From the NCBI GenBank assembly GCA_022561145.1, contig JADFRS010000018.1:1-35813 (forward strand): a stretch of DNA of 35,813 nucleotides, read 5' to 3'. Both the position numbers and the translations under genes were made by a program. Position 1 is the stretch's first letter; the number at the start of each line of letters is the position of its first letter. Positions 28,114 through 32,492 of this stretch are shown piece after piece. The notes under the pieces were generated by a model. The model saw only the letters and a list, made by a program, of their open reading frames with translations. It had not been told where the DNA came from and made no database searches. The stretch is from Gemmatimonadota bacterium (GTDB lineage: Bacteria; Gemmatimonadota; Gemmatimonadetes; Longimicrobiales; Gaopeijiaceae).

Positions 28114-29484
28114 ATGGAGCTAACCGCAGCCGAGGTTTGGACCCGCGTCCTGAGCGCAGCGCGGGCCAGCTTGCCGGAGCAAAGCTATCGGACTTGGCTC
28201 GCCGGCTCCTCCGCTATCGCCCTCACCGACGATGAACTCCTGGTCGAGTGCGCGAGCGAGTTTCACGTAGAGTGGATCGAGGACAGGTACGGAGCCATGC
28301 TGAGCGAGTTGGCCGGACGACTCCTCGGCAGGGAGCTTCGGTTGAGCTTCCGCCCAGGCGACCCGGAACCGGCAGCCTCGGTCCCCGCGGTCGAGGTGGC
28401 CGCTCCGACCCTGCCGACGAAAGGCGGTCCATCCCTCGCTCGTGAGCGGCCCTCCGGAATCAACGAGCGCTACACCTTCGAGCGCTTCGTGGTGGGGAAT
28501 AACAACCAGCTCGCCTCGGCAGCCTGCCACGCGGTCGCCCGGGAGCCGGCGAGAATGTACAACCCGCTCTTCCTGTACGGTGGCGTGGGGCTGGGGAAGA
28601 CCCACCTCATGCACGCTATCGCGAATGCGATTCTCGCCACCCGCCCAGAGACCCGGGTCTCCTACGTACCGTCCGAACGATTCACGAACGAACTCGTGAC
28701 CTCGATCCAGGCGGGCACGACTCCCGATTTTCGGCGGCGTTACCGGCAAATGGACCTGCTGCTCGTCGACGACATCCACTTCCTCGAGGGTAAGGAACGA
28801 ACTCAAGAGGAGTTCTTCCACACATTCAACGCGCTGTACGACGCCCGTAAGCAGATCATCCTGACCAGCGACCGGCCGCCGAAGGAACTCCCGGGACTCG
28901 AGGAGCGACTGATCTCACGGTTCGAGTGGGGGCTGGTAGCCGATATCAAGCCGCCCGACTACGAAACCCGCGTGGCGATCCTCAGGAAGAAGGCCGAGGA
29001 GGACTCACTGTTTCTGGACCCCGAGGTCATCGACTTCATTGCCCGCTCGTGCACCAACTCGGTCCGGGAACTGGAAGGGGCCGTCATCAAGCTCCTCGCA
29101 TACTCCTCTTTGACGAACCAGGAAATCACCGTAGATCTCGCGCAAACATCGCTCCTGAGTTCCGGCGGTGTGATCGGAGGAGTAGGCGAGCCACTCGGCC
29201 CCGAGCGAGTCAGCGAAACGGTCGCAAGCCGGTGGAAAGTGACCTCGGACGGCCTGAGCTCGAAGCGTCGTACAAAAGACTTGACGGTCCCCCGCCAAGT
29301 CGCCATGTACCTGATCAGGGATCTCCTGGATCTCCCGCTCGCACAGATCGGCAAGTTGTTCGGCGGGAGGGACCACTCCACCGTAATTCACTCGATCCGG
29401 AAGGTCGAAGACGCGATGGGTGGAGATCCGGATTTCCGTCGCGAAGTCGAGTCCGTTCGAGAAGAACTCAGAAAGCCTTTTTGA
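28114..29484 (+). CDS. dnaA: Chromosomal replication initiator protein DnaA
   Basis: This 456-residue AAA+ initiator has all four domains. Domain I is about 1-80 (VWTRVLSAARASLPEQSYRT) and the Pro-rich linker is about 81-115. Domain III carries Walker A GGVGLGKTH (Lys162) and Walker B LLLVDDIHF (Asp219/Asp220). The C-terminal helix-turn-helix ends in FGGRDHSTVIHSIRKVE, which contacts DnaA boxes. Domain I starts exactly at this ATG, but no Shine-Dalgarno sequence precedes it. A five-codon overlapping frame (28106-28123) spans the start. dnaA reads away from rpmH and toward oriC and dnaN. Confidence 0.97.
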   Translation: MELTAAEVWTRVLSAARASLPEQSYRTWLAGSSAIALTDDELLVECASEFHVEWIEDRYGAMLSELAGRLLGRELRLSFRPGDPEPAASVPAVEVAAPTLPTKGGPSLARERPSGINERYTFERFVVGNNNQLASAACHAVAREPARMYNPLFLYGGVGLGKTHLMHAIANAILATRPETRVSYVPSERFTNELVTSIQAGTTPDFRRRYRQMDLLLVDDIHFLEGKERTQEEFFHTFNALYDARKQIILTSDRPPKELPGLEERLISRFEWGLVADIKPPDYETRVAILRKKAEEDSLFLDPEVIDFIARSCTNSVRELEGAVIKLLAYSSLTNQEITVDLAQTSLLSSGGVIGGVGEPLGPERVSETVASRWKVTSDGLSSKRRTKDLTVPRQVAMYLIRDLLDLPLAQIGKLFGGRDHSTVIHSIRKVEDAMGGDPDFRREVESVREELRKPF

Positions 29485-29641
29485 ATGCTGTGGAGAGACG
29501 GGGAAACCATGTGGAGAAACCACGAGATGCCCACATCGAGTTCTCGCCATCCACATTCAGCGCTTGTTTTCCACCTGGACAGCACAGCGAGATCTCGCGC
29601 ACTGGGGCGCTCCATGCGACTATTCCACGAATCCACAGGCT

Positions 29642-29653
29642 CTACTACTACTA
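29642..29653 (+). repeat. Four tandem CTA trinucleotides (DnaA-trio pattern)
   Basis: CTACTACTACTA lies five bases after the DnaA-box-like GAATCCACA (29629-29637), with GGCT between, and leads into CTTTATATATAG. Its complement read 3' to 5' is GAT repeated four times, the DnaA-trio motif on which DnaA assembles along single strands in other bacteria. Confidence 0.75.
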
Positions 29654-29683
29654 GTCTTTATATATAGACACTCTCTAAAGACA

Positions 29684-29711
29684 TTCAGACTGTGAATAAT
29701 TCAGATATAAT
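29684..29711 (+). promoter_or_regulatory. Probable dnaN promoter
   Basis: TATAAT (29706-29711) is a perfect -10 box. TTCAGA (29684-29689) at 16-base spacing could serve as a weak -35. The DnaA-box-like TGTGAATAA (29691-29699) falls in the spacer, so DnaA occupancy of the origin could affect dnaN expression. Confidence 0.5.
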
Positions 29712-29732
29712 CGCACACGGAGCCGAGACTCG

Positions 29733-30845
29733 ATGAAATTCACAATCACGCGCCAGCACCTGCACAAGGGACTTGTCGCAGTCTCCGCCAGCATTCCGAC
29801 CAAGACCACCTTACCCGTGCTCTCGAACATTCTCTTCGAGGCCGGCCAGGATGGAGTCTGGATGAGTGGTACGGATCTGGATGTGGCCGTTCGCGTTTTA
29901 GTACCTGCTGACGTCGAGGAACAGGGGAGCCTCACGGCTCCGGGCAAGAAGCTTCAGGAGATTACCAAGGAACTGCCGGATGAACCCGTGGAGGTTCTTA
30001 CTCGGGGTGACCAGATCGAGCTCAAATGCGGCCGGGCACACTTCAAGTTGAACGGGCTACCTGCCGAAGAGTTTCCGACCTTGCCCGAAGTGAATTTCGA
30101 TGAAGGGTGGACGGTCGAAGGTGGGCACCTCCATAGCTTGATTCAGCACACGGCGTTCGCCGTCTCGACAGAAGAAAGCCGCCCCATTTTGAATGGCGCT
30201 CTGTGGGAACTGCGCGACGGACAGATGGGGATGGTGGCCACGAACGGGCATCGCTTGGCACGCATGAGCGTTCCGGCCGAATCGTCGTCTGCGCCGAGTG
30301 CCGATTTCATCGTGCCGCCTGCGGCGCTCGGGCAGGTACAGCGGCTCTTCAAGGAGACCGACAAACTGCAGGTGGCTTACAGCGGAAATCATCTTGGCTT
30401 CAGGGCTTCGGGCACCGAGGTCTACACACGGTTGATCGAGGGAAGCTATCCGAACTACGAACAAGTGATTCCCAAAGACAACGACAAGGTGGCGGTAATC
30501 GACAAGAACCTGCTGGTTGCAGCCGTGCGACGAATGGCTGTGGTTGCGAGCGATCAGACCCATCGTCTCCGGATGACACTCGAGCCGGGCCGAGTCCACC
30601 TGAACGTTCAGACCCCCGACCTCGGGGAGGGGCACGACGAACTGGAAGTTCAGTACGAGGGTGAGGGCCTCGAGATCGGCTTCAATGCGGCATACCTTCT
30701 CGAGGTGCTTCGTCACATGCCGACCGACGATATCAAGATGAGCTTCAAAGCTCCCGAACGGGCGGCAACAGTGGTTCCGGTGCCCGATGAAGGAGAGGAG
30801 ATAGACTACCTCTGCTTGGTGATGCCGCTACGCTTGCTGGACTAG
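29733..30845 (+). CDS. dnaN: DNA polymerase III beta subunit (sliding clamp)
   Basis: This 370-residue protein forms the dimeric ring that tethers polymerase III to DNA. Three repeated clamp folds are visible, with family landmarks MKFTITRQHLHKGL, TTLPVLSNILFE, GATNGHRLA-like MVATNGHRLARMSV, LIEGSYPNYEQVIP and the C-terminal peptide-binding end YLCLVMPLRL. CGGAG lies in the leader ahead of the ATG. It is the second gene in the direction leaving oriC and ends in a hairpin shared with the convergent pyrE. Confidence 0.97.
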   Translation: MKFTITRQHLHKGLVAVSASIPTKTTLPVLSNILFEAGQDGVWMSGTDLDVAVRVLVPADVEEQGSLTAPGKKLQEITKELPDEPVEVLTRGDQIELKCGRAHFKLNGLPAEEFPTLPEVNFDEGWTVEGGHLHSLIQHTAFAVSTEESRPILNGALWELRDGQMGMVATNGHRLARMSVPAESSSAPSADFIVPPAALGQVQRLFKETDKLQVAYSGNHLGFRASGTEVYTRLIEGSYPNYEQVIPKDNDKVAVIDKNLLVAAVRRMAVVASDQTHRLRMTLEPGRVHLNVQTPDLGEGHDELEVQYEGEGLEIGFNAAYLLEVLRHMPTDDIKMSFKAPERAATVVPVPDEGEEIDYLCLVMPLRLLD

Positions 30846-30874: not shown

Positions 30875-31440
30875 AGCGCGAGGGCCCTGGCCCGGAGATC
30901 CGGTCCCGAAAAGGCTGCCAGCACAGCATAGCCGGAGGCTTCGATCCGTGCGCGCCCGCCCTCATCGCGATCCACGAGACAGAAGACGCCCAGTACTTCG
31001 ACCCCATGTTCCCGGACGGCCGAGATGGCAGCGAGAGCGCTGGCCCCCGATGTGATTGCGTCCTCAATGACCACGACGCGGGCGTCAGCCGGAAGGCCCC
31101 CCTCGATACGCTTGCCCGTTCCGTGGGCCTTCGCCTCCTTACGGACCGTATAGGCGTCGATAGGCGCTCCTACCGTCCAACTGTGATGGGCGATCGCGTA
31201 CGAGACCGGGTCCGCGCCGAGGGTGAGCCCACCCACATGCGTGGGGTCCCAGCCAGCCTCGCGGATGGCCCCGTAGCCGACCGCACCGACCAAGGCCTGC
31301 CCCTCCGCCGACATGGTTGTGAGCCGCGCATCCACGTAGTAGGTCGAACGTGCACCGCTCGAGAGGGTAAAATCACCGACCCGAACGGAACGCTCGGTCA
31401 GAAGGGCCTGCAGGCGTTGTCGATCAGAGGATTGGTTCAT
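30871..31440 (-). CDS. pyrE: Orotate phosphoribosyltransferase
   Basis: This 189-residue enzyme makes orotidine 5'-monophosphate from orotate and PRPP in pyrimidine synthesis. The PRPP loop VVVIEDAITSGASA (122-135), the catalytic-loop residues in RKEAKAHGTGK (Lys101, Lys104, His106) and the orotate region FTLSSGARSTYYVDAR are all present. The ATG at 31440 is chosen; the frame is open upstream, but that overlaps the divergent gene. It is transcribed against fork direction, toward dnaN, and shares a 3' hairpin with it. Confidence 0.94.
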   Translation of the reverse strand: MNQSSDRQRLQALLTERSVRVGDFTLSSGARSTYYVDARLTTMSAEGQALVGAVGYGAIREAGWDPTHVGGLTLGADPVSYAIAHHSWTVGAPIDAYTVRKEAKAHGTGKRIEGGLPADARVVVIEDAITSGASALAAISAVREHGVEVLGVFCLVDRDEGGRARIEASGYAVLAAFSGPDLRARALAL

Positions 31441-31484
31441 GCCTTCGATTGTCCGTGGGCTGGCCGAGTTAGTCAAGGCGTACA

Positions 31485-32492
31485 ATGAGCCCAGAGACAG
31501 TAATGGCGCTAACAACTACCAGGATCGGCAAGCCCAGCAGGTTCATCCTGCTGGGATCGCTGGTCCTGCTGGGGTCGTGCAACGGAGGAACCGGGCCAGC
31601 CATCGGTACGCTCCGTTTCGCCCAGTTGGGCGAAATCCGGATCCAGCTCATCCAGCCTCTACAGCTGGGCGTGGGTGAGCTTCAGCAGTCCCTCACGTGG
31701 CACTCCTCGGGCCCCTGGCGGCTCGCCGAGGGTATCTCCTACCGGGGAATCCTAGGGGACGAGCAGGTGTTGGTCAGTGAGGGCGACCCCGATTTGCTGG
31801 CGGCGGCATATGCCCAGATCATCACGCATTTGAACGAGACCACCGGGCTCGAACTCTTCATCGACGAACTCGACCCGCTGCTGGACCCGCCGTGCGGCCT
31901 TACGGGCACACGGGTGAACCTGACACTCCGCGACGAAGGAAGGAACGAAGAGGTCACGTGGAGGCGCTGTACCACCGGCGATTTCAAGAACATCAGCCCG
32001 GTGGGCGCGGGTCCGGACCCGCAGGCCAGCAGGGTCGTGCAGGCGGCACTTCTCGTGAAGGCGGCGACACTCGGAGACGGCTTCATCTCGGAGTACGAGG
32101 GCAGCGTCCCGTTCTCTACGCTCGATCGTGGTGAGAACTCCAACGCGCCGCTCGAGGGTCCGCTTTCGTTCTCCAGCGAGGCCGGCTGGCCCGAGTTTTG
32201 GGAGCAGCACACCGCGCCCGGTCAGGTGCCTCCCGCCATCGACTTCGAGGTCGACCAGGTGGTCGTTGCGGCCGTGGGTCTACGCACAGAGGCGGGTGAT
32301 TCGGTGGAGGTGCGCAGGATTCTTCGGGTGGGTGTCGGAAGCCTCACGCACATCCGGGAGCGTATTCCGGGGGACTTCTGCTCGCCCGCGGCCCGCAACC
32401 AAGTACCCTTCCACATCGTCCTGTCGCCCAAGACGCCTCTTCCCATGGCATTCGCCGAGATCCTGGTGGAGCGGGTCTCCTGCGGCCTGTGA
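31485..32492 (+). CDS. Lipoprotein with PrcB-like C-terminal domain
   Basis: This 335-residue protein has a lipoprotein signal (RFILLGSLVLLGSC, Cys32). Residues ~40-225 are of unrecognised type. The last ~105 residues resemble the PrcB-like (PF14343-type) domain: a helix with WPEFWEQHTA, then FEVDQVVVAAVGLRTEAGDS, and PGDFCSPAARNQVPFHIVLS before the final strand. In Treponema the namesake stabilises a surface protease, and the role in other bacteria is unknown. AAGG lies six bases before the ATG at 31485. ATG 31503 is an alternative. It ends 14 bases before the histidine kinase and is probably co-transcribed, possibly as an envelope input to it. The domain call is from memory and moderate. 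Confidence 0.6.
   Translation: MSPETVMALTTTRIGKPSRFILLGSLVLLGSCNGGTGPAIGTLRFAQLGEIRIQLIQPLQLGVGELQQSLTWHSSGPWRLAEGISYRGILGDEQVLVSEGDPDLLAAAYAQIITHLNETTGLELFIDELDPLLDPPCGLTGTRVNLTLRDEGRNEEVTWRRCTTGDFKNISPVGAGPDPQASRVVQAALLVKAATLGDGFISEYEGSVPFSTLDRGENSNAPLEGPLSFSSEAGWPEFWEQHTAPGQVPPAIDFEVDQVVVAAVGLRTEAGDSVEVRRILRVGVGSLTHIRERIPGDFCSPAARNQVPFHIVLSPKTPLPMAFAEILVERVSCGL

Follow-up and report, generated by a model that had tools for sequence, protein, structure and literature searches.

Two questions are raised by the intergenic spacer between dnaA and dnaN in this member of the Gemmatimonadota: whether it is the chromosomal origin of replication, and whether it carries an opening signal of the kind known from Bacillus subtilis. 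The window, i.e., the whole stretch of 35,813 nucleotides that was analysed, belongs to an assembly of 4.12 Mb in 252 contigs (89% complete), and the closest named relatives of its dnaA are in Gemmatimonadetes MAGs. The window encodes the replication initiator DnaA (dnaA, 28114..29484, plus strand, 456 aa; TIGR00362, 516 bits) and the DNA polymerase III beta clamp (dnaN, 29733..30845, plus strand, 370 aa; TIGR00663, 307 bits), and the 248 bp between them (29485..29732, no strand assigned) are the predicted oriC by their box density, a local skew minimum and the skew switch seen in a complete relative, G005. Upstream and on the opposite strand, the window holds rnpA, yidC, mnmE and mnmG, the customary neighbourhood of oriC. 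We consider it very probable that the spacer is the chromosomal oriC and that positions 29621-29689 within it are a basal unwinding system (BUS).

The spacer contains six DnaA-box-like 9-mers with up to 2 mismatches, a density of 24/kb as compared to 0.87/kb elsewhere in the window (28-fold). Next to dnaA are CTCTCCACA (29489..29497, 2 mismatches) and TTCTCCACA (29510..29518, 1 mismatch), both on the minus strand, and these are followed on the plus strand by CCATCCACA (29547..29555) and TTTTCCACC (29567..29575), with 2 mismatches each. From 29629 onward, the initial annotation had read a box, GGCT, four CTA repeats and an AT tract, with non-consensus boxes, and the DNA has exactly that order, GAATCCACA-GGCT-CTACTACTACTA-GTC-TTTATATATAG. 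The box GAATCCACA (29629..29637, plus strand, 2 mismatches) does begin there, but a further box in the same orientation that had been missed, TATTCCACG (29621..29629, plus strand, 3 mismatches), overlaps it by one shared base and puts the start of the unwinding site at 29621. The core of this distal box, TCCACG, is at -18 from the first trio and that of the proximal box at -10. The GC-rich spacer GGCT (29638..29641, plus strand) is 4 nt long, as it is in most relatives, and leads into four perfect DnaA-trios (29642..29653, minus strand), which read CTA four times on the plus strand and 3'-GAT-5' four times on the minus strand, the strand that DnaA is predicted to hold. The AT-rich unwinding tract (29654..29689, no strand), which begins with GTCTTTATATATAG, is partly palindromic, and the 40-mers with the least GC anywhere in the 35.8-kb window begin at 29646 and 29672. 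Between this tract and dnaN is an inverted DnaA box, TTATTCACA (29691..29699, minus strand, 1 mismatch), which is identical in L003 of the same genus. A search of Rfam gave no match. The extended pattern TCCACNNNTCCACANNNNCTACTACTACTA has a single match in the window (29624-29653, 0 mismatches), stays unique there when up to 3 mismatches are tolerated, occurs once across the 4.12-Mb assembly and is absent from 100 dinucleotide shuffles even with up to 3 mismatches allowed.

The cumulative GC skew of the window is lowest at 29-30 kb. Because the source assembly is in contigs, global skew was read from two complete relatives, G005 and G022, in place of the source genome. For G005, a single-contig genome of 4,224,903 bp from the same family, forty 20-kb samples put the minimum of the cumulative skew at 3.126-3.160 Mb, with dnaN at 3,126,087; in the sample that covers this gene, the 1-kb skew stays below zero as far as 3126 kb, changes sign at 3126-3127 kb, the position of dnaN, and is from there on mostly above or close to zero. 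The global skew of G022 is noisy, and its local sign switch is also at dnaN. The skew minimum that had been expected at this locus is therefore found, both in the window and at dnaA/dnaN in the same-family genome.

A survey of bacterial origins (PMC8287927) predicts a BUS in 85% of 2070 origins, shows function in vitro outside Firmicutes, and searches for a box with up to 2 mismatches, an optional second box with up to 4, a spacer of up to 16 nt and at least three trios. Measured against TTATCCACA, GAATCCACA has 2 mismatches and TATTCCACG has 3; the spacer is 4 nt; there are four perfect trio units where at least three with a middle A, mostly 3'-GAT-5', are asked for; the location is oriC, with global skew taken from the complete genome of the same family; the cores stand at -18 and -10 as in Bacillota; and the cognate DnaA has the capture residues and the arginine finger, with V in place of I190. 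As in the B. subtilis BUS (PMC8287927, PMC10721633), two boxes of the same orientation, whose cores are spaced by 8 bp, are followed by a short GC-rich spacer, 3'-GAT-5' trios on the same strand and an AT tract, all before dnaN, so that TATTCCACG is the counterpart of B. subtilis box 6 and GAATCCACA that of box 7. Unlike B. subtilis, where the distal box 6 is the consensus one, the window has two non-consensus boxes of which the proximal is the better match, and it has four perfect CTA units in a GC-rich genome. The spacer thus carries a canonical BUS of an already known kind, with a function predicted from the layout of the DNA and from its DnaA.

To learn how far this layout extends, we collected ~190 dnaA-dnaN spacers from 11 Gemmatimonadota families. 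Rows anchored on the trios had been selected by trio score, and for that reason their conservation is not proof for the trio columns; anchoring on the tandem boxes alone, at 11 or more box matches out of 12, and leaving aside both the loci that had been retrieved through the trio pattern and genus g36 with its deviant tract, avoided this circularity. Of the 58 box-anchored Gemmatimonadota spacers, 53 have CTA at precisely +10 relative to the second box core. Each of the 11 families has members with trios of CTA or a CTA-like sequence in this spacer, and the distal core is kept at -18 across the phylum and in Bacillota, whose loci show the same -18/-10 register (e.g., TTATCCACATATTCACAGCCC-CTACTACTATTA), as do the loci from other groups that were examined in this way. 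The initial annotation's expectation that the CTA block and box spacing would be conserved is thereby confirmed in close as well as distant relatives, and its description of a Bacillus-like unwinding layout outside Firmicutes was apt. It overstated the case in taking the locus as a fresh test of the generality of the trio model, because PMC8287927 already predicts the BUS across bacteria and shows it to work in vitro outside Firmicutes; a BUS-type opening signal is expected here, not new. The main text of that survey leaves Gemmatimonadota unnamed, and an earlier prediction for the phylum is possible. The papers searched here gave no dedicated origin study of Gemmatimonadota, and the layout is now documented across the phylum. 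Conservation of the origin-opening register to the base in a phylum that is GC-rich and distant from Bacillota lends support to the idea of an ancestral BUS.

There are departures from the common pattern. Family f11 forms a separate class with TTATCCACA boxes, several of them with CTAATAATAATA. The trios of family f9 (L273-L276) begin at +9, one base earlier than in most other families. Five loci (L009, L020, L220, L256 and L257) retain the CTA block next to tandem DnaA boxes that have decayed, and the spacer of L020 is very AT-rich (33% GC). An exact scan of the phylum for TCCACAN{0,6}CTACTACTA matched 53 of 395 genomes; as evidence by itself it was too strict and not discriminating, and the spacers next to dnaN were used in its place.

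The DnaA protein of the window aligns end to end (residues 7-453, E 2e-121) with the B. subtilis DnaA of PDB 8btg, which is the structure of the B. subtilis BUS. In B. subtilis numbering, E183, N187, R202, K222, E223 and E228 are kept and the arginine finger R264 has its equivalent, while I190 is replaced by V and N196 by G; the roles of the trio-capture residues are described in PMC10721633 and PMC8287927. By analogy with B. subtilis and the other species tested, two DnaA molecules would dock via domain IV on the tandem boxes as double-stranded DNA, and their AAA+ domains would seed a DnaA filament running onto the minus strand. Each 3'-GAT-5' trio would have two of its bases held between adjacent subunits, and the duplex would therefore open into the AT tract. 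Loading of the helicase would then probably be assisted by DciA, a protein encoded by the source genome and by 18 of the 18 relatives searched. DciA stands here in place of the DnaD of B. subtilis: a DnaB_2 domain (DnaD/DnaB; PF07261) was detected in 0 of these 19 genomes, the source assembly being 89% complete, and the B. subtilis control was positive. The DnaD recognition element (DRE) lies opposite the trios (PMC10201434), and that strand is present in the window too; since neither the source nor the 18 relatives have a DnaB_2 match, the DnaD route to a second helicase, in its described form, is not open to them.

Three other explanations of the locus deserve consideration. The CTA block could be a triplet repeat without function, made by chance or by slippage, that happens to adjoin a DnaA box. 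Repeats this short form readily, and the exact scan run with its pattern reversed, as a control, hit a similar number of genomes. Yet the window has (CTA)4 at a single place, its register is fixed in the box-anchored spacers, the scan matches that could be checked against dnaN lie nearly all ~80-125 bp upstream of it, and trios persist beside decayed boxes (L009, L020); conservation largely refutes a meaningless repeat, to which we give almost no credence. It is just as hard to believe that opening follows the E. coli type, through AT-rich repeats and a bent DnaA complex, with the trios left as vestiges. The tract after the trios is indeed very AT-rich, and E. coli itself is a weak BUS scorer (PMC8287927), but neither the strict register across the phylum nor the retention of the trio-holding residues in DnaA would be expected of a vestige.

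Or the region may be mainly a DnaA-regulated dnaN promoter, the true origin being elsewhere. A possible dnaN promoter, TTCAGA-16-TATAAT (29684..29711, plus strand), matches at 10/12 positions (1 promoter match found vs 0.2 expected) and adjoins the inverted DnaA box. The initial annotation had noted a perfect -10 box for dnaN, and TATAAT is present at 29706-29711, but the -35 is weak and L003 of the same genus has CATAAT at the -10 position; box cores and trios are identical in this sister genome and the TATAAT is not. The skew switch at dnaA/dnaN in G005 and the finding of no comparable DnaA-box cluster elsewhere in the window also speak against the promoter as the main function, which was rejected and which we regard as very unlikely. 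A promoter and an origin can coexist. The reading of the spacer as oriC with a BUS is the one retained in what follows, where middle-C trios and inverted repeats in relatives of the source genome provide two variations on the signal that are worth testing.

A trio whose middle A is exchanged for C remains active and one with G or T in that place has lower activity, which has been explained by an amino group that contacts N187 (PMC10721633). Among non-redundant Gemmatimonadota origins, the middle base of in-register trios 2 and 3 is A in 125 cases, C in 18, G in 5 and T in 1. C is thus three times as frequent a replacement as G and T combined, and for C against G (18:5) a one-sided binomial test gives p ~0.005 before any correction for shared ancestry. 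Such a preference for C is a prediction of the amino-group recognition model from B. subtilis DnaA, and Gemmatimonadota amount to a natural experiment on the middle-base rule. CGA trios were found in families f1, f3, f4 and f5. Most genomes of genus g36 (L033, L105, L222, L292, L293, L295-L301 and L304) read CTA TGA TGA CGA in the standard +10 register, i.e., with a middle C in trios 2-4, and TTA TGA TGA TGA occurs as a variant; in many of them the deviant trios are followed by another tract in direct orientation, such as CTGTTACTAATT. Judged by sequence, this genus has apparently switched to trios with a middle C, although the frame may instead be shifted to ATG ATG ACG ATC, with a middle A.

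The other variation lies beyond the AT tract. An inverted motif, [AT]AG[TCA]AG within 50 nt, occurs in 36 of 100 non-redundant Gemmatimonadota origins as compared to 13.7 expected from shuffles, while its direct-orientation control gave 9 vs 7.8 expected and other phyla gave 2/42 vs 3.4. As the motif had been written after part of the data was seen, fresh genomes were fetched as a held-out set, in which it was found in 9/14 origins of f4 (3.2 expected) and in 2/11 of f5 (1.9 expected). Without any motif, the trio block was also aligned locally to the reverse-complemented downstream arm; on first-look and held-out loci mixed, this alignment scored at least 8 in 25/123 cases vs 4.9 expected, mainly in f4 (14/32) and f5 (7/31), and in 5/40 vs 2.3 expected in other phyla. 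In f5, an arm fits its own partner more closely than it fits the arms of other species (permutation p 0.0002), and the f4 arms have no such preference (p 0.17). Hairpin tests of the trio-AT region gave a mean z of -0.65 vs -0.23 upstream, with z below -2 in 15% vs 6%, a signal that is weak overall and strong in a few f5 members. Inverted DnaA boxes with up to 2 mismatches are found beyond the AT tract across the phylum (32% vs 6% in shuffles), as are direct ones in 19% vs 6%.

Two readings fit these data, trios on the two strands or an inverted repeat that is conserved as such. In the former case, part of the Gemmatimonadota would have a mirrored BUS, with facing trios on both strands flanking the AT tract: inverted trio-like repeats would follow ~12-20 nt past the CTA trios, sometimes with an inverted DnaA box after them, and two DnaA filaments would grip opposite strands, marking both for helicase loading. 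We put this forward tentatively and think it rather unlikely; the alternative is a plain inverted-repeat role as a hairpin or cruciform. A mirrored BUS, if true, would be a DnaD-free answer to the placing of the second helicase, and with the inverted trios its loading becomes open to test in organisms that have DciA and in which DnaD was not detected. In the window, no clear inverted trios were seen beyond the AT tract, just the inverted box TTATTCACA, which seems to be all that its genus keeps. A mirror module of inverted box and inverted trios at a fixed offset (16-17 in f1 members L016, L017, L214 and L015) was suggestive and is not claimed, because inverted TCCAC is present in just 32 of 108 spacers.

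Inverted trio-like repeats were noted in f4 and parts of f5 and f1 (e.g., L140, L228, L232, L235, L242, L259, L262, L268, L319 and L331), and in some f5 members they form almost perfect inverted repeats with covarying arms. An inverted DnaA box on the dnaN side is also present in some loci of Clostridium (L037, L038). Between dnaN and the genes for a histidine kinase and sigma-54 response regulator pair, the window has two ORFs (31006-32489; 160 and 335 aa) with no match in Pfam or NCBIfam. Four genomes of family f3 (G024, G032, G034 and G036) encode, besides the dnaN at the origin, a second, divergent dnaN-like gene with 29-48% identity to the query.
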